Below are positions 2,541-14,217 of a stretch of DNA of 64,000 nucleotides, piece after piece (within the stretch, counting starts at the first letter, position 1; every line of letters starts with the position of its first letter). Position numbers and translations under genes: made by a program. Source of the DNA: Rossellomorea sp. AcN35-11 (GTDB lineage: Bacteria; Bacillota; Bacilli; Bacillales; Bacillaceae_B); NCBI GenBank assembly GCA_030388825.1, contig CP128835.1:310001-374000 (forward strand), given 5' to 3'. Under the pieces are notes generated by a model. It was given only the letters and a program-made list of their open reading frames with translations, was not told where the DNA came from and did not search any database.

Positions 2541-4163
2541 CTATAAAGATTTCTGTACCAAATGATCCTTCAATTGCTCACGTAGCGCACGCTTCAGAAA
2601 TTTCCCGACGGATGTTTTCGGTATTTCGTCCATAAAGACGATATCATCAGGAAGCCACCACTTAGCAAATTGCGGTGCAATGAAGTCAATCAATTCTTGT
2701 TTACCGACTGTATCTTTGTACGGTTCCTTCAGCACTACACAGGCGACGGGACGCTCCTGCCACTCTTCGTGGGGAACGGCAACGATGCTCGCTTCGAAGA
2801 CGGCTTCGTGGGCCATCAATGCGTTCTCAAGGTCAACAGACGAGATCCATTCCCCGCCGCTTTTGATCAGGTCCTTGGTCCGGTCAACCAGTTTAATGAT
2901 CCCTTCCTCATCCACTGTGGCAACGTCCCCTGTATAGAGCCAGCCATCCCTGAAGGCCTCAACGGAACGTTCATCCTTGTAATATTCATCTGCGATCCAC
3001 GGTCCACGGAGGATGATCTCCCCCATTTCCTCGCCGTTCCACTCGACCTCCCCGTCCACTCCCATTACTTTCATTTCAAGTCCCGGTACGATGAGCCCCT
3101 GCTTGGAACGGATATCGAGGATTTCCTCCTCATCAAGGCCGGTCTGGTAACTCTTCAGTCGTGACACAGACGCAAGCGGAGTCGTTTCCGTCATGCCGTA
3201 TGCGTGGAGAAATGGGATGTTGTATTTCGTTTCGAACGTTTTGATCATTCCCCTCGGTGCGGCTGATCCCCCGCAAATGATGGACCTTAGGGAGGAAGTG
3301 GCGTAGCTCCCGCTTTCCAGTTCATTCAGGAGCCCGAGCCAAATCGTCGGTACACCGGCAGTAAGGGTGACGTGTTCCTCTTCAATCAGTTCAGCAAGTA
3401 GCTTCGGGGTAAAGGACGGACCCGGCAATACTTGAGTGGAGCCGAACCAGGTGGCGGCAAACGGCATTCCCCAGGCATTGGCATGGAACATGGGCACAAC
3501 CGGCATCACCACATCTCTTTCGGACAGGGCGACCGTATCCGCCAAGCCAAAGGCAAAGCTGTGAAGGACAATGCCTCTATGGGAGTAGACCACTCCCTTT
3601 GGTTTACCTGTCGTCGCAGATGTATAGCACATTCCCGCCGGTTCATTTTCATCGAGATCCTTCACGAATTCGAAGTCGGGATCGGCTTCTTCCAGGAGTT
3701 CTTCATAGGAGTAGACGGGTTCGAGGGTCGTTTCCGGAAGTTCCTCCTTGTCGGTCATGATGATATACCCTTCCACGGTTTCCAATTGGTCTTTGCACTT
3801 TTCAATGATGGGCAGTAAATCTTCATCGACGAGTAACACCTTGTCTTCAGCGTGATTGACAATGTACGAGATATGTTCAGAAGCCAGGCGGATATTGATG
3901 GTATGGAGGACGGCCCCCATTCCCGGTGCGGCAAAATAGACCTCCAGGTGCCGGTGGTGATTCCAGGCAAATGTCCCGACCCTGTCACCTTTTCCTACCC
4001 CCAGTTTCTCCAGGGCACCCGCGAGTCTCCTCGTACGTTCTCCGATTTCTTTATACGTCAGCCGATGGATTCCTGATAGCGTCCTTGAAACAATCTGCTT
4101 TTTCGGAAAATACATTTCAGCTCTTTCCAGCAATGAGCCTACTGTCATTGGAACATTCATCAT
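2541..4163 (-). CDS. Acyl-CoA ligase (AMP-binding, fatty-acid type)
   Basis: A 540-residue adenylate-forming enzyme that activates a carboxylic acid to its CoA thioester. The P-loop reads YTSATTGKPKGV, with Ala in place of the more usual Gly. Also present are YGMTETT, the DGWLYTGD core motif, and a C-terminal PKTSVGKFLKR carrying the adenylation Lys. The start at 4163 follows GGAAGGGG. It is the last gene of the sigma-54 operon beginning at 10842, and one of three different ligases in it. This one is closest in motif style to medium/long-chain fatty-acyl ligases. Chain-length specificity cannot be read from the sequence. Confidence 0.9.
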   Translation of the reverse strand: MMNVPMTVGSLLERAEMYFPKKQIVSRTLSGIHRLTYKEIGERTRRLAGALEKLGVGKGDRVGTFAWNHHRHLEVYFAAPGMGAVLHTINIRLASEHISYIVNHAEDKVLLVDEDLLPIIEKCKDQLETVEGYIIMTDKEELPETTLEPVYSYEELLEEADPDFEFVKDLDENEPAGMCYTSATTGKPKGVVYSHRGIVLHSFAFGLADTVALSERDVVMPVVPMFHANAWGMPFAATWFGSTQVLPGPSFTPKLLAELIEEEHVTLTAGVPTIWLGLLNELESGSYATSSLRSIICGGSAAPRGMIKTFETKYNIPFLHAYGMTETTPLASVSRLKSYQTGLDEEEILDIRSKQGLIVPGLEMKVMGVDGEVEWNGEEMGEIILRGPWIADEYYKDERSVEAFRDGWLYTGDVATVDEEGIIKLVDRTKDLIKSGGEWISSVDLENALMAHEAVFEASIVAVPHEEWQERPVACVVLKEPYKDTVGKQELIDFIAPQFAKWWLPDDIVFMDEIPKTSVGKFLKRALREQLKDHLVQKSL

Positions 4164-4194
4164 ACCGCTTTTTCCCCTTCCGTTTACGTATTCG

Positions 4195-5310
4195 TTATTC
4201 AATAACGCCTTTTTCCTTCCACTTCTGCAACTCCTCATCCGTCACGCCCAGAAAGTCCCGCAGGATCTCATCGGTCTGCTCCCCTTTTACCGGCGGGGAT
4301 GTGACAGCCTTTTTTTCTAAGTCACTGTGGATGTTCACCTGCCCGGTGTCTGAAAACATGTCCTTTTCCTGAAAAACAGGATAGTCCGCCAGTTGTTCCG
4401 TTTCAAGGACAGGCGTGAGACAGCAGTCCACTTCCTGTCCGAATGCAGACCACTCGGATTGTGACTTGCTTTTAAACACATCCACCAGTTCCGTGTAAAC
4501 CGCGTTTTCCGGTTCCGGTTTCGTATAGTGAGACGCGAGCCACTCCCTCCTTCCAAGAGCGTGGCAGAAGTTCCGCCAAAATTTAGGCTCAAGGGCGGCA
4601 AGGCTGACATATCGGTTATCCTTCGTTTCATACAGTCCATAGGAAATCACAGTATCATGCAAGATGTGAACCCCGTTCCGATAACCGGTTTCCTTCTGGA
4701 TCAGGGCATGATTGAGCATCATGGAAGCCATGCTGTCGGCAATGGAAATGCAGTGGTAGCTTCCTTCCCCTGACATTCCCCGGGCGACAAGTCCAGCCAG
4801 CACCCGTTCACTTGCCGCCATACCGCCGACATAATCAGCAAAGGTCTGACTGGGATGAACCGGCTTCCCTTCCCTGTCCTTAAGCTGGGCAAGGGCCCCG
4901 CTTATGCTCATATAATTCAGATCATGACTGCCGAGCCCGGCCATCTTCCCCTTGTTTCCATACCCTGTAATGGAACAATAGATGATGGAAGGGTTGATCC
5001 CTTTTACAGTCTCATACCCGAGGCCGAGCTTTTCCATGACTCCAGGCCGGAAGCTTTCCATGACAGCATCCGCCTTTTCAAGCAAGCCCAGGGCAATCCT
5101 TCTCCCCTCTTCCTGCTTCAGATTCAGGGAGATGCTTTTTTTGCCGGGGTTATGAGCTTTAAAAACAAGTCCCTTCTCATTATGTCTCGCAGGGTCCCCT
5201 TCGGGAGGTTCGATCTTGATGACCTCCGCTCCCAGTTCAGCCAGTCGCAAGGTGGCAAAAGGACCGGGTATATAATGGGTGAAATCGATTAGTTTAATCC
5301 CCTTCAACAT
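4195..5310 (-). CDS. Alpha-methylacyl-CoA racemase / family III CoA-transferase
   Basis: A 371-residue CaiB/BaiF-family protein. With the start at 5310 (MLKGIKLIDF) the fold-typical ADLGAEVIKIE-like segment is at residues 24-34. GSHD places His at 129 and TFADYVGG places Asp at 159. This 30-residue His/Asp spacing matches the catalytic pair described for bacterial alpha-methylacyl-CoA racemases (His126/Asp156), so racemase is favoured over CoA transferase. A racemase would epimerise (2R)-methylacyl-CoA so that the S-specific dehydrogenase next door can act. The longer upstream extension to 5529 overlaps the neighbouring ligase and is rejected. Confidence 0.8.
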   Translation of the reverse strand: MLKGIKLIDFTHYIPGPFATLRLAELGAEVIKIEPPEGDPARHNEKGLVFKAHNPGKKSISLNLKQEEGRRIALGLLEKADAVMESFRPGVMEKLGLGYETVKGINPSIIYCSITGYGNKGKMAGLGSHDLNYMSISGALAQLKDREGKPVHPSQTFADYVGGMAASERVLAGLVARGMSGEGSYHCISIADSMASMMLNHALIQKETGYRNGVHILHDTVISYGLYETKDNRYVSLAALEPKFWRNFCHALGRREWLASHYTKPEPENAVYTELVDVFKSKSQSEWSAFGQEVDCCLTPVLETEQLADYPVFQEKDMFSDTGQVNIHSDLEKKAVTSPPVKGEQTDEILRDFLGVTDEELQKWKEKGVIE

Positions 5311-5329
5311 GGTGAGCGCCTCGTCCTCC

Positions 5330-6901
5330 TTATGTGGTGCGTCCGTTGGCCAATACATCCTCCATTTGCTTACGGAGCATGAATTTTTGAATTTTCCCGC
5401 TGGCATTCCGCGGCAGTTCTGCAACGAATACATACTTCCTCGGTCGTTTATAATTGGCCAGGCTGTCGCTTCCTTTGCACCATTGATCAAGCTCTTCACT
5501 TGTAACATCAGGATCTTTCTTGACCACAAAGGCGGTCACACTTTCTCCCCAGCGATCATCCGGCTGCCCTATTATCGCGACGTCCAGGACTCCCTTATGG
5601 GAATGAAGCACATCCTCCACCTCCCGTGGGTAAATATTTTCCCCGCCGCTGATGATCATATCGTCCACCCTGTCCTTGACCCAGAGATAGCCGTCTTCAT
5701 CCAGGTAGCCAATATCCCCGGAATGATACCAGCCTTTATACATGGCTTTCTCCGATGCCTCGTCCCGGTTAAAATAACCGGACATCATGCACGGGCCCTG
5801 TACAATGATTTCCCCGCTTTCGCCAGGGGGAAGGATCTCATCGGGATCAGACGGTCCATCTTCATTCGGTCTGACAATCCGGATGTCATGATTCAGGCAT
5901 GCCTTCCCGGCTGCGCCGGCCTTTGAAAGCTGGTCTTCTTCAGAGAGAAAGGTGATGGCCGGTCCCATTTCCGTCATACCATATGCCTGAACGAGTGATA
6001 TTCCAAGCTGTTCATGACAGGCATGAACAAGAGAGGGCGCCATTGGGGCTGCACCGTATAGTCCTCGTTTTAAGCTTTTGATATCGTAATCGGCAAGATT
6101 CTCCTGCAGCACCATATTCCACATCGTCGGCGCAGCAAAGAACGTAGTTATTTTCTCAGAATCAATCAGTCCCAGGACGTTCTTCGGTGCAAACTGATGA
6201 AGGATGACATTCTTCCCGCCACTATGCACCCTTGGAAGAAAGGCACAATGAAGCTCCGCACAGTGGAACATGGGGGCGGTCACAAGCCCGACGTCACTGG
6301 CGCTTAGTTTCGTCGCCCCAATGGTGATCAGACTTTGCTCCACCATACTCCGATGCCTGTGCATGACTCCCTTTGGCCGTCCCGTCGTCCCGCTTGTGTA
6401 CATGATGGCGTATGGATCATTCTCATGGACATCCGCCACAACCGGATCCGGTTCCGCCCCTTTCACTTTTTCATGATAGCTCGCTGCATAGGAAGGGGGT
6501 TCCTCGTCAATGAACCAGAAGGCCGTGTAAGGAAATCGTTTCTCAATCGAAGCGATGACAGGCTCCACCGCCTTCTCAAACAGGACGACCTTAGGGGCAG
6601 CATCCTCCAGGATGAACGCCACCTCTTCCCCCATCAACCGGAAGTTAATCGGATTAAACACCGCTCCGATTTTGGCACAGGCGAAAAAGGCCGATCCCAA
6701 TTCCTCTGTATTAAACATCAGCGTCGATACCCGGTCGCCCTTTTTCACCCCCTCCTTCATCAGGGCATGGGCAAGGCGGTTCACCTCATCATTCCATTCA
6801 CTGTAAGTAAAGCGGACCTGTTTCCGTACATCATAGAGGGCTTCCTTATTCGGAAATTTCTTTACGGTCAGGTCAAATATGCGGCCGATCGTTGTACTCA
6901 T
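5330..6901 (-). CDS. Acyl-CoA ligase (AMP-binding)
   Basis: A 523-residue ligase with YTSGTTGRPKGVMHRH as P-loop, YGMTEMGP, GWYHSGDIGYLDEDGY, and PRNASGKIQK with the catalytic Lys near the C-terminus. Two ATGs lie at 6907 and 6901. AGGAGGA abuts the first and is seven bases from the second, so 6901 is preferred. It lies 19 bases upstream of the racemase-like gene, so the two are probably translated from one message. It belongs to the same operon as two other ligases, which suggests a mixed or branched substrate range. Confidence 0.9.
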   Translation of the reverse strand: MSTTIGRIFDLTVKKFPNKEALYDVRKQVRFTYSEWNDEVNRLAHALMKEGVKKGDRVSTLMFNTEELGSAFFACAKIGAVFNPINFRLMGEEVAFILEDAAPKVVLFEKAVEPVIASIEKRFPYTAFWFIDEEPPSYAASYHEKVKGAEPDPVVADVHENDPYAIMYTSGTTGRPKGVMHRHRSMVEQSLITIGATKLSASDVGLVTAPMFHCAELHCAFLPRVHSGGKNVILHQFAPKNVLGLIDSEKITTFFAAPTMWNMVLQENLADYDIKSLKRGLYGAAPMAPSLVHACHEQLGISLVQAYGMTEMGPAITFLSEEDQLSKAGAAGKACLNHDIRIVRPNEDGPSDPDEILPPGESGEIIVQGPCMMSGYFNRDEASEKAMYKGWYHSGDIGYLDEDGYLWVKDRVDDMIISGGENIYPREVEDVLHSHKGVLDVAIIGQPDDRWGESVTAFVVKKDPDVTSEELDQWCKGSDSLANYKRPRKYVFVAELPRNASGKIQKFMLRKQMEDVLANGRTT

Positions 6902-6948
6902 TTCCATTCCTCCTATTCGTCTGTCCTCTTCTTTCGGTTGAAACCGCG

Positions 6949-8103
6949 CTACCCGAGACGCTCAATGATGGTCGCATTCGCCATCCCATGACCCTCGCAC
7001 ATGGTCTGCAGTCCATAGCGGCCTCCGGACCTTTCCAGCTCATGCATCATGGTGATCATGAGACGTGCTCCACTCGCTCCGAGGGGATGTCCAAGGGCAA
7101 TCGCTCCGCCATTCGGATTGACCTTCGCAGGATCTGCTCCTGTTTCCTTGAGCCATGCCAGAGGAACCGGGGCAAATGCCTCGTTGACCTCGAATACATC
7201 GATCTCCTCAAGGGATAATCCCGCTTTTTTCAGGACTTTCTCTGTTGCCGGAATCGGTCCGGTCAGCATCAGGGTAGGATCGGAACCAACCACCACTCTC
7301 GTATGTACCTTGAAGCGTGGTTTCAGGCCGAGTTCTTCTGCCTTTTCACGGCTCATCAAGAGAACCGCCGCAGCCCCGTCACTGATCTGGCTCGAGTTTC
7401 CGGCATGGATGACACCGTCTTCTTTGAAGACCGTTTTCAACTCCGAAAGGGTTTCTGGTGTCGTGCCTTCCCTTGGACCCGAGTCCTCGGTCACGACGGC
7501 TGTTTCCCCGTTTTCCATCGTCACCTCAAGGGGCATGATTTCGTTTGTAAAATAGCCTTCCGCCTGTGCTTTCAAGGCGCGTCGGTGACTTTCCGAAGAG
7601 AATTCATCGAGCTCCGCGCGGGTCAATCCATATTCTTCAGCGATTCTTTCCGCCGATAACCCCTGATGAATGATCTCATAGCGGTCTTTCAGCTTCGGAC
7701 TGAACGGTTCGGCACTTCCATAGTTCGATCCCATGGGCACCCTGGACATACTCTCCACGCCTCCTGCGATCACAATGTCCATGTCGCCGGCCAAAATGGC
7801 CTGTGCCGCGAAATGGACGGCCTGCTGGCTCGAGCCGCACTGACGATCGATGGTCGTGCCCGGCACCTGAATGGGAAACCCAGCAATCAGGGCTGCCACC
7901 CTGGCAATATCACCAGCCTGCTCGCCGGCCTGTGTGACGCACCCGAGAATGACATCCTCCACCAGCTCAGCCCCGATTCCTGACCGCTTCATAAGCTCCT
8001 GCAACACCTGAGCAGCCAGATCGTCCGGACGGATATCCTTTAGTGCTCCCTTCCTTCTTCCAACAGGTGTTCTTACACCTTCTACAATGACTACTTCCCG
8101 CAT
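6949..8103 (-). CDS. Acetyl-CoA C-acyltransferase (thiolase)
   Basis: A 384-residue biosynthetic/degradative thiolase that cleaves 3-ketoacyl-CoA with CoA. The nucleophilic Cys is at 89 (DRQCGSSQQA), the catalytic His at 339 (GGAIALGHPLGASG) and the second Cys at 369 (TMCEGHGMANA, where most relatives have CEGGG). Length is normal for the family. It sits between the acyl-CoA dehydrogenase and a ligase. With the dehydrogenase and the HSD10-like SDR it gives three of the four beta-oxidation steps; no enoyl-CoA hydratase is present. Confidence 0.93.
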   Translation of the reverse strand: MREVVIVEGVRTPVGRRKGALKDIRPDDLAAQVLQELMKRSGIGAELVEDVILGCVTQAGEQAGDIARVAALIAGFPIQVPGTTIDRQCGSSQQAVHFAAQAILAGDMDIVIAGGVESMSRVPMGSNYGSAEPFSPKLKDRYEIIHQGLSAERIAEEYGLTRAELDEFSSESHRRALKAQAEGYFTNEIMPLEVTMENGETAVVTEDSGPREGTTPETLSELKTVFKEDGVIHAGNSSQISDGAAAVLLMSREKAEELGLKPRFKVHTRVVVGSDPTLMLTGPIPATEKVLKKAGLSLEEIDVFEVNEAFAPVPLAWLKETGADPAKVNPNGGAIALGHPLGASGARLMITMMHELERSGGRYGLQTMCEGHGMANATIIERLG

Positions 8104-8139
8104 CTTCCATCTCTCCTTTTACTCTCTCTAACTGGCAGT

Positions 8140-9285
8140 CTATAAACCCATATTCTTGGCAATAATCGTCTTCATGATTTCATTTGTTCCTGCGTAAATA
8201 CTCGCTACGGGAATATCCCGGAATCTCCTGGCAATCTCGTATTCTTCCATATACCCGTATCCTCCATGGAGCTGCATGCATTCGGCGGCGATTCTCTTGG
8301 CGATGTCCGTCAGCTTCCACTTAGCCATGGACACCTTCGTGACAATATCCTTTCCATCCATATGCTCAGCAATCAACTGATCGAGGAATGCCCTGCCCAT
8401 TTCGATATCAGTGGCCATTTCCGCTATCTTGAATTGGGTGTTCTGGAATTTGCTCACCGGTTTCCCGAAGGCATCCCGGCTCTTCACATACTCAATGGTT
8501 TGCTTCAGCATCACCTCTGATGCCGTCTGGGCGGCGATGGCCACCAGCAGGCGCTCCTGTTGAAGCTTTTCCATCAGGTAAACGAAGCCCTTGCCTTCTT
8601 CACCCAGGAGATTTTCCTTCGGTACGGCACAATCCTCAAAGATCAGCTCCGCCGTGTCCTGGGAATGAAGGCCCACCTTGTTCAGCTTCCTTCCCCGGGA
8701 AAACCCCGGAGTATCCCGTTCCACAACGAGGAGACTGACCCCCTTATGCTTCGGATTCGCTTTCGGATCCGTTTTACAAGCCACAATGATGAGATCCGAG
8801 TGGATTCCGTTGGTAATGAACGTTTTCGATCCATTTAAGATGTAGTGGTCACCATGGAGAAGAGCCGTTGTCTGGATGTTTGCCAGGTCCGATCCGGTTC
8901 CAGGCTCCGTCATGGCAATCGCCGTAATGATTTCACCCGTCGTGCATTTCGACAGCCACCGTTTCTTCTGCTCCTCTGTCCCATACGCTGTCAGATAAGG
9001 AACGACAATATCATTATGAAGTCCAACCCCGACAAGCCCCGAGCCGACTCGCTCAATCTCTTCATTGATGATGACGGAAAATCCCCAATCGACCTCGCTG
9101 CCTCCATATTTCTCTTCAATATCCGGGCACAGATAGCCCTGCTCTCCCATTTTCGTCCAGAAGGAGCGCGGAATCATCCGCTCCTCCTCCCACTGTTCAT
9201 AAAAGGGATACGCCTCCTTCTCTAGAAACTTCCGTAAGGAACTGCGGAAGATGTCGTGATCGTCCGTTAGATAAGGGTGTTTCAT
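8140..9285 (-). CDS. Acyl-CoA dehydrogenase
   Basis: A 381-residue FAD flavoprotein introducing the alpha-beta double bond into acyl-CoA. It shows the AMTEPGTGSD motif near residue 125, the LHGGYGYMEEY motif near 344, and the catalytic-base Glu in YAGTNEIMK at about 369, the short/medium-chain position. Electrons would go to ETF, which is not encoded here. It is the second gene of the sigma-54 operon, 33 bases after the frameshifted ligase. Confidence 0.93.
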   Translation of the reverse strand: MKHPYLTDDHDIFRSSLRKFLEKEAYPFYEQWEEERMIPRSFWTKMGEQGYLCPDIEEKYGGSEVDWGFSVIINEEIERVGSGLVGVGLHNDIVVPYLTAYGTEEQKKRWLSKCTTGEIITAIAMTEPGTGSDLANIQTTALLHGDHYILNGSKTFITNGIHSDLIIVACKTDPKANPKHKGVSLLVVERDTPGFSRGRKLNKVGLHSQDTAELIFEDCAVPKENLLGEEGKGFVYLMEKLQQERLLVAIAAQTASEVMLKQTIEYVKSRDAFGKPVSKFQNTQFKIAEMATDIEMGRAFLDQLIAEHMDGKDIVTKVSMAKWKLTDIAKRIAAECMQLHGGYGYMEEYEIARRFRDIPVASIYAGTNEIMKTIIAKNMGL

Positions 9286-9317
9286 GATAACCTCTCCTCA
9301 CTGGTATAAATAACTCC

Positions 9318-10842
9318 CTATTGCTTGACTGTGTTCAGCGACTGTCGCAGCTGATATTTCAAGATCTTCCCTGAAGCATTTCTCGGAAGAGCTTCTTCCA
9401 CAAAGATTCTCCTTGGAACCTTATAGCCAGCCAGCTTCTGACGGCAGAAGCTTTTCAATTCCTGTTCATCTATCACCGCATCCTGCTTAGCCACGATGAC
9501 GGCACAGACCGCTTCTCCCCACGTTTCATCAGGGAGACCGATGATGGCTGCCTCGAGTACGGCAGGGTGCTCATAGAGAACTTCCTCCACTTCGATGGAA
9601 TAGACATTTTCCCCTCCGGATATGATCATGTCTTTCTTCCGGTCCACAAGGGTGATGTAGCCATCTTCATCCCTGGTGGCAAGATCCCCCGTATACAGCC
9701 ATCCATTCTTGATCGTTTTCGCGGTTTCTTCCGGCTTCCGGTAATATTCCTTCATGATGGATTCCCCTTTTAGGATAAACTCACCTACCGCACCCGGCTC
9801 AATATCCAGCCCTTCTTCATTGACCACTCTTGCTTCCGTCAGAAACGCTGCTTTCCCGCCTTTTCCAAAATGGGTCCTATGCCCTTCCGGTGTGAGAAGA
9901 ATTCCTCCTGGGCCTGCTTCTGTGAGTCCGCACAGATTGTAAAACTGGTCTGTCTTGAATAGTTCAATGCTCTTCCTTACGACCTCAGGGGCCATCGGTG
10001 CCGCCCCGTAACCGCATCGCTTGATGGAAGAAAGGTCGTAATCCGCGGCATTTGGGACCTGCAGCCATAAACGTATACATGGCAGGCACTCCAAAGAAAT
10101 GAGTGATGGAGTGCTCCTGAATTGCTTCCAGTGTCTTCACAGGATGAAATTCACGCTGGATGATATGAGTCGCCCCGAGTACCACCCCTGAAATAAGGAA
10201 CAGGTTCAGCTGGGCAGAATGGAACAATGGCGCAATATGAAGGAAGCGTTCTTCTTCATTGATGCCCATGCTGATCATCATCGTTAGCCCCACATTGAAG
10301 ATGCGCTTGTGGTCGAATAGCGCCCCTTTCGGTTTTCCTGTTGTACCGGACGTGTATAAGATTTCGAGATCGTCGTCTTCACTGACGAGGACAGACGGTT
10401 CCCGGGTTTCGACCCCAACAACCTTTTCAAACGAATGATGGCCTACAACCCTCGGTGTCCCCGTCGTGATCACATGGAGGACATTGGTTCCTTCTCTCGC
10501 CGTTGTGATCGTTTCCTCGAACTCACCGTCACAGAACACGACGGATGACTCGGACTGCTCCAGAATGTAGTGGACCTCGGATGACGTCAGACGGAAATTG
10601 ATCGGGACGATGACGGCACCGATCTTCGCACCAGCAAAGAAAGCCAGCACAAACTGATCTGAATTCTTCATCATTAACGCTACTTTTTCCCCTTTCTGAA
10701 CCCCCAGGTCAAGGAGCCCGTGCGCCAATTTATTCACTTCCTGATTGAACTGCTCATACGTGTAGGTCCGTCCCTCACATACCATTGCCAGCTTTTCCGG
10801 CTTCTTCCTCGCGTTTTGTGCTAAATAAGATCCGATATCCAT
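9318..10842 (-). pseudogene. Acyl-CoA ligase split by a frameshift
   Basis: The first 260 or so codons from 10842 (YTSGTTGKPKGALFDHKR P-loop) run to FFGVPAMYTFM and then enter a wrong frame. The remaining two thirds of the domain (LQVPNAADYDLSSIKRCGYG onward, LTEAGPGG, NGWLYTGD, PRNASGKILK) continue in another frame to 9318. Removing one of the two C bases at 10065-10066 restores a normal ligase of about 507 residues. This is the first gene of the sigma-54 operon. Either the gene is broken or the base call is wrong; all catalytic motifs survive, which favours recent damage or an error. Confidence 0.88.
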
Positions 10843-10896
10843 CCTTTTATTCCCCCTTAAATAATAGATAGTGAAAACGCCTTCATTCTTCTGTTA

Positions 10897-10913
10897 TGCA
10901 ATAATTGTGCCAA
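10897..10913 (-). promoter_or_regulatory. Sigma-54 (-24/-12) promoter of the acyl-CoA operon
   Basis: On the minus strand the sequence reads TTGGCACAATTATTGCA, matching the sigma-54 consensus TGGCAC-N5-TTGCA exactly. It lies about 60 bases upstream of the first ligase start at 10842. The adjacent gene encodes a sigma-54 activator, which strongly supports the call. Confidence 0.9.
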
Positions 10914-10960
10914 CTTTCAGAAATCAACAAACTCACCCTTTATGTGAAGAAGGGACAAGA

Positions 10961-10987
10961 AAAGGTGTCCAGAAATTGGACACCTTT
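10961..10987. promoter_or_regulatory. Probable upstream activator site for the sigma-54 activator
   Basis: AAAGGTGTCCA and TGGACACCTTT form an 11-bp perfect inverted repeat around GAAAT, about 60 bases upstream of the -24 element. Its core TGTCCAGAAATTGGACA recurs with two changes before the second sigma-54 promoter (14114-14130). It could also serve as a weak terminator for the activator gene ending at 11027. Confidence 0.7.
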
Positions 10988-11026
10988 ATGTGTACAGTAC
11001 AGGTGGTCGACAGGGAGCTCCCCTGT

Positions 11027-13075
11027 CTAGACAGACAGCTCGTACTTTTTCAGTTTCTCATATAAGCCTGAGCGGCTGATGCCGAGAAGCCTGGCCGCCT
11101 GGGCTTTGTTGCCGTTCGCCTGGGTCAGGGCCTTCCGGATCGCTCCAAGCTCAGCATCGTCAGCAAGTCCGGTGTGCTGAATCACCGGCTCCTGCAGCTG
11201 GCCCAGGAGATATTCCGGCAGGTCCTCGGTCTGAATGTTTCCGTGCTCGGCAAACGTCATGGCACGCTCAAGAACATTTCGAAGCTCCCGGACATTCCCC
11301 GGCCACCTGTATTGACTCAAGGCTTCCTCTGCCTTTGCCGATATTCCCGTAATGCTGGTACCCAGCATGGAATTCAGCTCAACCATCAGCTTATTGGTCA
11401 GATGCCCGACATCATGAACCCGCTCCCGCAATGGAGGAATCGTCAGGGAGATCACGTTCAGCCTGTAATATAAATCCTCCCTGAATTCTCCTTCCTGCAC
11501 CATTTTCTCCAGGTTCCGGTTGGTGGCAGCGATGATGCGCACATCCACCTTGATGCGCTCATTCCCCCCTACACGATAAAATTCACGTTCCTGGAGGACC
11601 CGTAACAGCTTTGCCTGGAGGGCAATGGACATATCCCCGATTTCATCAAGAAACAGCGTCCCCCCATTGGCTAAATCGAACTTCCCTACCTTGCCGCGCT
11701 GCTTCGCTCCAGTGAACGCCCCTTCCTCATAACCGAAAAACTCTGACTCCAGAAGATCTTCAGGGATGGCTGCACAGTTGACGATGACAAACCGGCCGTC
11801 ACTTCTTGCACTGCTGTTATGAATCGCATGGGCAAATAACTCCTTGCCCGTTCCGCTTTCCCCCCTGATCAGAACGGTCGACCGTCCTTTCGCAGCCTTG
11901 GCGGCACTCTTCTTCAGTTTATCCATATAGGGATATTCACTCAGGATATGGTCCCACGTAAACCGGGCTGATTCTGACTTTTGCAGCTGACGGTGATAAA
12001 AGCTTGCCTTATTCTCAGCCTTCTGGAGGCGTTTGAACAGCTCACTCACCTCGTTCAACTGACGGAACATCACCTTCCCGATCGCCCCGATGACCTTGCC
12101 GTCCTTCTTGATGGGAATTCTATGTACAATGTATTTAATCCCTTTTCTCTCGTTAAAGTCACTGATTTCAGCTGTTTCCGTCTTAAATACATGGGCAAGC
12201 TTCAACTGGGGAAGCACCTTGTCCGCATCTTGATGAAGCACCTCGGATCGGTCCATGTCGAAAAGTTCAAGGAGAGGCGGACTGACCATCGTAATGATGT
12301 TCTGTTCATCGGTCATCAAGATTCCATCGTAGGCGTGCTCCAATGAAGTCTCGATGGTCAGCTTCAGCTTTTTAACCGTCTGCAGCTCCTCAGCCATCTT
12401 TTCAATTTCCGAAATGTCCTGGAATAAGATGATCTTCCCTTCTTTATGATTCACGGTTTCATAGGATGAAAGATGGACGATCGATTGATACGTCTCATCA
12501 TAGTGATGCCCCTGATGTGAGAGGGAGAGACTCGGGAAGACGTCCCCAACCCGGCGGGACAGGATGGAATCCACAGACCGGCCTGTGATCTTCACTAAAG
12601 CATCATTGGCATACATGATCTGCAAATGCTCATCTGTCATCAGCACCCCCATATGGGAATGGCTTAAGATGGTTTCCAGCTGCTCTTTCAGGGTATTGGC
12701 CGACTTTACTAACGCCATCACCATTTCTGTCTTCGTCAATAAGCCCATCAGCTTGCCTTCTTCATCAAGGACCACCCCGGTACCCGCCTTGCTTGTCTTC
12801 ACCAATTCCTCGATCCGGTGGAAAGGGGTATCGACCTGAATCGCCAGTGCATCCCTTTTTATGTATGACTCAATCGTGGTTTCAAGCGGCAATCCATCGA
12901 GAATCATTTGATAGAGCCCGCTCCGTGTAAACACACCCTTTAGATTCCGGTCTTCATCTGTAACAGGCAGCAAGTTCCATTTCTTCTCTTTGATGATTTC
13001 GATCGCTTCTTTCAGCGTTGTTCCTTCCGTGATCACACCCTCGACAGGTGTGACAATATCCCGGAACTGAAGCAT
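11027..13075 (-). CDS. Sigma-54-dependent enhancer-binding activator with CBS and PAS domains
   Basis: A 682-residue activator. Two CBS domains (about residues 5-115) and two PAS domains (about 125-230 and 245-350) precede an AAA+ domain with Walker A GESGTGKE, the sigma-54 contact motif GAFTGA and Walker [12 protein letters not shown], then a Fis-type helix-turn-helix ([20 protein letters not shown]). The start at 13075 has GAGGGGGA seven bases upstream; the longer frame to 13156 lacks a site. CBS domains usually bind adenine nucleotides and PAS domains small ligands, so it may sense energy or acyl state. It sits between the two operons carrying sigma-54 promoters and almost surely activates both. 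Confidence 0.93.
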
Positions 13076-13209
13076 CTCAAGGTCCCCCTCTATCATTCTC
13101 TTTTTATCGTTGATGGCGGCCCTCGGAGACCACACTGATAAAATCTGAAAATTCAATTTGTTACTTTCAGTATAAAGCTTTCCGTACGAAAGGTCACTTC
13201 TTCCACGTG

Positions 13210-13244
13210 AAAAGACCCCCTTTTTTTTATTTAAAAGGGGGCCC
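13210..13244 (-). terminator. Rho-independent terminator after the SDR gene
   Basis: Minus-strand hairpin of CCCCCTTTT against AAAAGGGGG followed by TCTTTTC, just past the stop at 13249. It separates the SDR gene from the activator gene. Confidence 0.7.
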
Positions 13245-13248
13245 TGCT

Positions 13249-14017
13249 TTATTTCGGCTGCATCCTGATGCCGCCGTCCAGTCGGATCGTTTCTCCATTC
13301 AGCATGGGATTGGTGAGAATGCTTTCGACGAGATGGGCATATTCCTCCGGATGCCCGAGGCGTTGTGGAAATGGAACCATTTTGCCAAGGGATGTAACGG
13401 CTTCTTCCGGAAGAGATTCAAACATCGGAGTGTGGAACAATCCCGGCGCAATCGTCATCACCCGGATACCGTAAGCAGCAAGCTCCCTTGCGATGGGCAA
13501 GCGTCATCCCCACCACTCCGCCTTTGGAAGCACTATAGGCTGCCTGCCCGATTTGACCTTCATATGCCGCCACCGATGCCGTATTGATGACCACTCCCCT
13601 TTCACCATCCTTATCCGGTTCATTACTGGACATCTGTTCAGCTGCCAGCCTGATCACATTGAACGTGCCGATCAAGTTGATGGAAATCACCTTAGAGAAT
13701 GTCTCAAGGGCATGGATGCCTTTACGTGATAAGAGCTTGGAAGCAATCCCGATCCCTGCGCAGTTCACCACGGTATTCACCGCCCCGAACGAATCCACCG
13801 TTTGGTGAATGGCGTTTGCGACTTCTTCCTCACCCGTTACATCCGTTTGGATGTAAATCGCCCTTTCTCCCAGTTCATCTACAAGGGCCCGGCCTCTTTC
13901 CTCCGCTACATCCAGGATGGCTGCCTTTCCGCCGTTCCGGATGATCTGCCTCACTGTCGCTTCCCCTAAACCTGACGCTCCACCTGTCACAATTGCACTG
14001 GACTCCCTGATCTTCAT
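13249..14017 (-). pseudogene. HSD10-like 3-hydroxyacyl-CoA dehydrogenase (SDR) split by a frameshift
   Basis: From 14017 the protein shows the Rossmann glycine motif TGGASGLGE, NCAG, and the YSASK active site, then leaves frame after GVVGMTL. The rest ([20 protein letters not shown], ending GGIRMQPK) continues in another frame. Deleting one base near 13498-13500 gives a normal protein of about 255 residues. It resembles human HSD10 and bacterial 3-hydroxy-2-methylbutyryl-CoA dehydrogenases, which oxidise 3-hydroxyacyl-CoA including 2-methyl-branched ones. It has its own sigma-54 promoter at 14056-14072, placing it with the operon at 2.5-10.8 kb. Confidence 0.87.
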
Positions 14018-14055
14018 TACATGACCTCCTGAAATATCGATTCAACTCCCTACAT

Positions 14056-14072
14056 TGCAAGAAATGTGCCAA
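14056..14072 (-). promoter_or_regulatory. Sigma-54 promoter of the SDR gene
   Basis: Minus-strand TTGGCACATTTCTTGCA gives GGCAC-N5-TTGCA with the exact -24/-12 spacing, about 40 bases upstream of the SDR start. Confidence 0.9.
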
Positions 14073-14113
14073 AACTGTTTCGCCTGCCCCGAGCAGGTTA
14101 TAAACCTCGACCC

Positions 14114-14130
14114 TGTCCAGAATCCGGACA
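14114..14130. promoter_or_regulatory. Probable upstream activator site, second copy
   Basis: TGTCCAGAATCCGGACA is an inverted repeat identical in size and nearly identical in sequence to the core of 10961-10987. A further half site (GGACAC at 14147-14152) lies just beyond. Its position relative to the -24 element is similar to that of the first copy. Confidence 0.7.
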
Positions 14131-14217
14131 CTTCAGACAGCGATTTGGACACTTTGAGAGGGACGGACCTTTCTTTCCCTTAAACAAAAAGCTATGTTAA
14201 ATGGTTGATAATTGAAC

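Follow-up and report, generated by a model that had tools for sequence, protein, structure and literature searches.

A candidate two-promoter sigma-54 regulon of acyl-CoA genes with a shared upstream palindrome in Rossellomorea

Gene order, promoters and palindromes at the locus

The window analysed here is a stretch of 64,000 nucleotides from Rossellomorea sp. AcN35-11 (assembly GCA_030388825.1, contig CP128835.1, positions 310,001 to 374,000), in a genome of 4.8 Mb in two contigs. The minus strand carries, in this order, a short-chain dehydrogenase/reductase (SDR) gene, a gene for a sigma-54 activator and a six-gene operon for acyl-coenzyme A (acyl-CoA) metabolism, LIG1-ACAD-THL-LIG2-CoAT-LIG3 (Table 1). 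The subject of this study is the pair of -24/-12 promoters that precede the SDR gene and the operon, the palindrome TGTCC-N7-GGACA that stands upstream of each, and the activator encoded between them.

Table 1. Features of the locus, numbered from the first letter of the window (palindrome centres assume that the promoter GC lies at -13/-12; ORF, open reading frame; HTH, helix-turn-helix; UAS, upstream activating sequence)
Feature	Position	Strand	Remarks
Sigma-54 -24/-12 promoter, acyl-CoA operon	10897..10913	-	TTGGCACAATTATTGCA, exact match
Sigma-54 -24/-12 promoter, SDR gene	14056..14072	-	TTGGCACATTTCTTGCA, exact match
Proposed enhancer (UAS), operon	10966..10982	-	TGTCC-N7-GGACA; starts 69 bases before promoter; centre ~-88
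Proposed enhancer (UAS), SDR promoter	14114..14130	-	TGTCC-N7-GGACA; starts 58 bases before promoter; centre ~-77
Sigma-54 activator, CBS-CBS-PAS-PAS-AAA+(GAFTGA)-Fis HTH	11027..13075	-	recognition helix SRSGLYEKL
SDR gene, related to 3-hydroxyacyl-CoA dehydrogenase type 2	13249..14017	-	frameshifted, ORF ends 13418
LIG1, AMP-forming acyl-CoA ligase	9318..10842	-	two ORFs, 9985-10842 and 9318-10094, by frameshift
ACAD, acyl-CoA dehydrogenase	8140..9285	-	nearest solved chain of congener protein, 2pg0_A
THL, thiolase	6949..8103	-	
LIG2, AMP-forming acyl-CoA ligase	5330..6907	-	
CoAT, class III CoA-transferase	4195..5389	-	start approximate
LIG3, AMP-forming acyl-CoA ligase	2541..4160	-	start approximate
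Inverted repeat, 10-base-pair arms around operon-side palindrome	10961..10987	-	possible activator-gene terminator and enhancer
Likely intrinsic terminator after SDR gene	13209..13245	-	G+C-rich hairpin and T run, by eye
Possible sigma-70-type promoter, activator gene	13169..13197	-	9/12 matches; such sites no commoner than in shuffles
Extra TGTCC half-site	14147..14151	-	starts 21 bases further upstream than the SDR-side palindrome; conservation inconsistent

An earlier note on this DNA had located two consensus -24/-12 promoters and two near-identical inverted repeats here. Both promoters are exact on the minus strand, and the repeats lie where they had been placed and are the only exact copies of TGTCC-N7-GGACA in the window. 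The promoters fit TTGGCAC-N5-TTGCW in full, with the GG and GC at fixed spacing, and are retained in relatives; they are the only zero-mismatch matches in the window. When up to two mismatches are allowed, the promoter pattern matches 25 places as against a mean of 25.5 in shuffled sequence, so that loose matches are uninformative. The distance between the SDR-side palindrome and its promoter is 57–58 bases in the window and in nine congener loci. The earlier note cited a range of 80–150 bases upstream for activator sites of this type; the operon-side centre falls within it, whereas the SDR-side centre lies slightly nearer to its promoter.

Across the genome, the exact palindrome occurs at five places (about one per megabase), as against seven for the reversed control pattern. 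Two of the five precede exact sigma-54 sites, of which the genome has eight, by 58 and 69 bases; none of the other three lies near any of these eight sites, and one of them falls inside an ORF (L003). With one mismatch allowed, the genome holds 35 sigma-54-like sites (8 exact and 27 with one mismatch), and the palindrome check covered 30 of them, namely the 8 exact sites and 22 of the 27. A palindrome with at most one mismatch at 36–160 bases upstream was found only at the window's two sites, and no further member of the regulon was found among the other 28 sites examined. The sigma-54 factor gene itself is present (PF04552, 214.4 bits, above the cut-off).

Several smaller features accompany these promoters. 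A conserved TTTTCTGAAAG abuts the operon -24 box across the genus, its form in the window being ATTTCTGAAAG (10914-10924). At the operon promoters of L076-L084, an extra TGTCC half-site lies 14 bases before the palindrome in eight of the nine congener loci and is degenerate in the window; TGTCCAAATCAAGG is the exact form of this region in five of them. Elsewhere in the genome (G000:C1:1891348-1892867), a sigma-54 promoter and a permease-like gene lie behind another sigma-54 activator gene, and the TGTCCAGAAATCCGGAA upstream of that promoter resembles the palindrome; CTGAAAG also precedes this sigma-54 site. The site at C1:1892867 was rejected as a member of the regulon: TGTCCAGAAATCCGGAA, at 68 bases, has three mismatches, and the permease-like gene has its own activator.

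Palindrome, activator and spacing in relatives

The earlier note had made its proposal depend on the palindrome and the promoter occurring together elsewhere in relatives, and a genome-wide search found them together in 11 of 36 genomes of the genus and in 15 of 397 genomes of the order. The 20 matches in the genus come from the present genome, a genome of the same species (G061) and nine congeners, and all represent this locus; the other 25 genus genomes contain no match, and the reversed control gave none in the genus. Two of the 11 genomes (G009 and G012) have one match rather than two, the other palindrome carrying one mismatch. A search for the activator in 60 relatives and the present genome (E <= 1e-100) found a full-length orthologue with 79–88% identity in 9 of 34 congeners; in the other 25 congeners, the matches begin at about residue 236 and represent other activators, or there are none. 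The same 11 of the 36 genus genomes carry both the motif pair and the full-length activator.

In the order, 22 matches were found and none for the control. Eight of these are genus loci already counted; the 14 new ones each adjoin a relative of LIG1 or of the SDR gene. The sensor part of the activator is present in 42 of the 397 genomes (E <= 1e-60; two by partial match). Fourteen of the 15 genomes with the motif pair are among these 42, and in the fifteenth, G378, the activator gene lies next to the site (L179). One locus in a record titled Chryseobacterium sp. ISL-80 (L124) is of the Bacillaceae type at 72% identity; its title or record is probably mislabelled.

The relation between the palindrome and the recognition helix of the activator was examined at 56 loci (L113-L168) from genera including Rossellomorea, Mesobacillus, Neobacillus, Peribacillus, Evansella, Sutcliffiella, Brevibacillus and Alkalihalobacillus. 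A total of 87 sigma-54-like sites with at most two mismatches were retained, each 5–160 bases before the matched SDR or operon gene; sites outside this range were left out, so that L148 is uncounted and L167 and four loci with an SRSVLY helix gave no site. With SRSGLY activators, the 41 operon-side promoters have an exact palindrome in 34 cases and one mismatch in 7, and the 38 SDR-side promoters have an exact palindrome in 21, one mismatch in 9, two in 7 and more in 1. At up to one mismatch, the palindrome is thus present at 71 of 79 SRSGLY promoters (41/41 on the operon side, 30/38 on the SDR side), at one of two SRSSLY promoters and at none of six SRSVLY promoters; base-shuffled upstream regions gave 35 in 17,400 (0.2%). 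L148, whose activator has an SRSSLY helix, carries an exact palindrome at 109 bases, outside the 87-site count. At the Alkalihalobacillus-type loci L147 and L149-L153, TGTCC-N7-GGACA is absent near the promoters seen, and weaker dyads stand at 66–67 bases in L150, L151 and L152. The site therefore varies with the recognition helix of the activator, as is predicted for a direct binder. L154 has the SDR gene at 6 kb upstream and LIG1 at 5 kb downstream from its activator gene; even so, both retain the promoter and an exact palindrome.

The spacing between palindrome and promoter is also ordered. At 57 exact sites in 38 loci, the distances from palindrome start to promoter start are 45, 56–58, 66–69, 77–80, 87, 99–101 and 109–112 bases, with R = 0.82 at 10.5 bases. 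When one mismatch is allowed, 70 of 72 sites fall within one 4.5-base window of the 10.5-base turn, a window that tracks the histogram bins and was picked after the data had been seen. The seven rounded cluster means give R = 0.895 at periods of 10–11 bases (p = 0.001 against random spaced sets); a single site at 144 bases (L140), one of the two out of phase, is excluded from these means. The phase is almost equal for the SDR side (4.5) and the operon side (5.1). We read this phasing as a requirement for the activator and the promoter to share one face of the helix for DNA looping. Helix covariation and helical phasing together point to the activator as the protein that binds the palindrome.

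Transcript ends and alternative readings

Among 27 related loci in which only a short gap separates the SDR and activator genes, a script detected a hairpin with a T run after the SDR gene in 16; the other 11 have none by the criteria used, and a separate scan did not report the window's hairpin at 13209..13245. Because of this hairpin and T run, in the window and in the 16 loci, the SDR gene probably forms its own transcript, the two sigma-54 units being the SDR gene alone and the operon. The possibility that the SDR promoter also drives the activator gene was considered and is unlikely on the same grounds; the activator gene is probably transcribed from a promoter of its own. Its start codon is more likely the ATG at 13075 than the TTG at 13156.

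On the operon side, the palindrome is embedded in a longer inverted repeat, and there is a small chance that this repeat is simply a terminator of the activator gene and that its likeness to the SDR-side repeat is coincidental or without function. Sites with at most two palindrome mismatches were compared for hairpins (48 on the operon side and 38 on the SDR side): on the operon side, the repeats form a median of 3.5 additional stem pairs, with a mean fold energy of -13.8; the SDR-side values are 0 and -7.7. The operon-side repeat lies 3–100 bases past the activator stop codon in 28 of 47 loci; three of the 47 computed distances are negative (L113, L137 and L141), the one for L113 being computed past the stop. 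Two variants, CGTCC..GGACG in L143 and TGTCC..GGACG in L144, retain RNA pairing. Of the 48 operon-side sites, 6 have 7 or more T among the 9 bases that follow the stem (4 of 9 in the window), but the mean T count on this side, 4.0 of 9, is barely above the 3.3 of 9 on the SDR side. Moreover, the core recurs in the SDR-side copy, where the longer hairpin is missing, the two sides share a near-identical helical phase to the promoter, and in L154 the repeat remains with the operon promoter, 4.9 kb from the end of the activator gene. The operon-side repeat may also end the activator transcript in some lineages.

It is less probable still that a different regulator, such as a fatty-acid-responsive repressor, binds the palindrome and that the activator's own site is elsewhere. 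A 17-base dyad is a generic feature, and Bacillus fatty-acid degradation genes are also under the control of repressors. In the genus, however, the presence or absence of the palindrome tracks the activator gene; a different recognition helix in the activator goes with a different site, and the distances are phased to the sigma-54 box. Least probable are two adjacent regulons with another sigma-54 activator serving one of the promoters: by match, the genome does encode five further sigma-54 activators, and four of these have their own exact sigma-54 site within 1 kb, but both promoters share the rare palindrome, which is missing from the 28 remaining sigma-54-like sites that were examined, and an SDR relative lies inside the operon in L147 and L150-L153.

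As expected of a shared enhancer, the palindrome stands before both transcription units, occurs with the activator and is not found at the other sites examined. The locus is therefore very likely a two-promoter sigma-54 regulon whose activator would bind TGTCC-N7-GGACA before the SDR gene and the operon. This had been proposed in the earlier note, and co-occurrence, helix covariation and phasing, all read from sequence, lend it support. Several observations weigh against it. Eight of the 38 SRSGLY SDR promoters have at least two palindrome mismatches. The SRSVLY loci are more distant and differ in gene order as well. G057 and G058 have activators that are about half identical, with a one-mismatch palindrome in G057 and none in G058. 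Among the 42 sensor-bearing genomes of the order, 28 gave no match to the strict pattern, which admitted no mismatch and only distances of ~54–84 bases. Since the operon-side repeat has longer hairpin arms, its conservation may partly reflect a terminator, and the co-occurrence and recognition-helix counts take no account of shared ancestry.

In the mechanism that we propose for this two-promoter regulon, a one-component activator would bind the palindrome before the SDR gene and before the ligase-dehydrogenase-thiolase-ligase-CoA-transferase-ligase operon. It would sit on a helix face that stays constant with respect to the promoter, and would make sigma-54 polymerase open the two promoters. 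The gene products would turn a carboxylic acid into its CoA thioester and carry it through part of beta-oxidation, with the SDR supplying the 3-hydroxyacyl-CoA oxidation step. Activator binding, sigL dependence, the ligand and the substrate are all points that we infer.

Sensor, target genes and related systems

The domain architecture given for the activator in the earlier note, with GAFTGA in its AAA+ domain, is borne out by domain matches, a predicted model and the translation. The AAA+ domain (PF00158, 246.8 bits) contains GAFTGA, the C-terminal Fis-type HTH matches PF02954 (52.1 bits), and profile search also detects CBS and PAS domains. The predicted model of the sensor part (369 residues; mean predicted local distance difference test score 80.9, predicted template-modelling score 0.43) contains one CBS pair and two PAS folds and matches CBS pairs and PAS proteins; the relative placing of the domains in it is unsure. 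The best NCBIfam match of a congener activator is the PrdR equivalog NF041552 (508.8 bits, best stretch residues 234-679); membership was rejected, as the score falls short of the curated 795-bit cut-off.

Sequence and fold matches of the CBS pair include AcuB (PDB 9s4z, 9s50, 9s51, 9s52 and 9qs7), and the titles of the matched AcuB structures name complexes with AMP, ADP and ATP. The usual adenosine-binding pattern of CBS domains is G-x-x-T-x-x-D/E, and in the second CBS the D or E of this pattern is present in 28 of 31 sequences. Because the CBS pair resembles adenylate-binding pairs such as AcuB, our guess is that its ligand could be an adenine nucleotide or a CoA-derived signal. AcuB shares the CBS pair with the activator but is an acetoin utilization protein and not a transcription activator.

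The CBS/PAS combination, thought unusual in the earlier note, proves instead to mark what is, by sequence comparison, a conserved family, with 56 related loci and a sensor part in the 42 order genomes mentioned above; some members have only one PAS. The activators of L157, L158 and L165 match a single PAS region and are ~100 residues shorter, giving CBS-CBS-PAS-AAA-Fis; these loci keep the operon-side site, which suggests that the first PAS is not essential. A distant activator in Anaerospora hongkongensis (L167), with two CBS and two PAS stretches and 26% identity over the sensor part, lies near thiolase, acyl-CoA dehydrogenase and SDR relatives.

The products of the locus, by sequence, activate and oxidise some carboxylic acid through part of beta-oxidation. 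The congener SDR is nearest in sequence to 3-hydroxyacyl-CoA dehydrogenase type 2, and the congener ACAD to 2pg0 and next to mitochondrial long-chain acyl-CoA dehydrogenase; LIG1-LIG3 fall in broad acyl-CoA ligase models. No enoyl-CoA hydratase was found among the locus proteins examined, and the other steps of beta-oxidation have candidates. LIG2 is missing in 8 of 9 congener loci compared and is present in Mesobacillus-type loci where the whole operon is covered. The place of the SDR gene varies among loci, and the SDR relatives within the operon noted above fit a shared pathway. In the same-species genome, LIG1 is intact as a single ORF and the SDR gene is also intact (at L112). The frameshifts in LIG1 and the SDR gene are likely assembly errors, since two or three other activator genes of the assembly are also broken or split matches; the assembly (G000) has an estimated contamination of 9.23%. 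Elsewhere in the window, a Crp-family regulator (cNMP-binding domain and Crp-type HTH) lies between two small ORFs resembling membrane proteins (833-1570).

A bolder reading, which we consider rather unlikely, joins the operon-side hairpin to the sensor: the operon enhancer would be built into the activator terminator, as an RNA hairpin and an in-phase DNA site at once, and the AcuB-like CBS pair would sense an adenylate or CoA-derived signal from the very AMP-forming ligases under its control. If this were true, the pathway would report its own flux.

Among known systems, the SoxR regulon of Bacillus thuringiensis HD73, as described in PMC4941409, is similar in that the activator gene adjoins two sigma-54-controlled target units, and an inverted repeat with a 7-base spacer precedes the soxB start site by 54 bases; footprinting and mutation support this repeat. 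It differs in its 11-base A/T-rich arms, its single binding site for both units and its sarcosine genes. A study of eight activators in the same strain (PMC4428206) describes a PAS domain in SoxR and, in its main text, no CBS domain, unlike the activator here. Reconstructed sigma-54 regulons of Clostridiales likewise have a sigma-54 promoter and a UAS before acyl-CoA genes, and the N-termini of their activators include PAS and CBS; they differ in serving butyrate synthesis, and neither TGTCC nor GGACA occurs in the main text of that survey. The natural enhancer-promoter distances of the LuxO-activated qrr genes of Vibrio cluster in ~11-base steps, as here, although LuxO is NtrC-like, the targets are regulatory RNA genes and the phylum is another (PMC4740811). 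Acyl-CoA dehydrogenases, acyl-CoA synthetases and short-chain-type dehydrogenases are described as enriched among predicted sigma-54 targets in Bacilli or Bacillota (PMC12316311). Searches of openly licensed literature gave no paper whose title or opening lines of abstract describe this activator, motif or regulon, which is weak evidence of absence.

For what would be sigma-54 control, in several genera of Bacillaceae, of beta-oxidation and the activation of carboxylic acids, the analysis specifies an activator, a DNA site and a set of genes. The natural variants, with a lost PAS, an altered helix accompanied by an altered site, and spacing that changes by whole turns, make sensing, recognition and looping testable.

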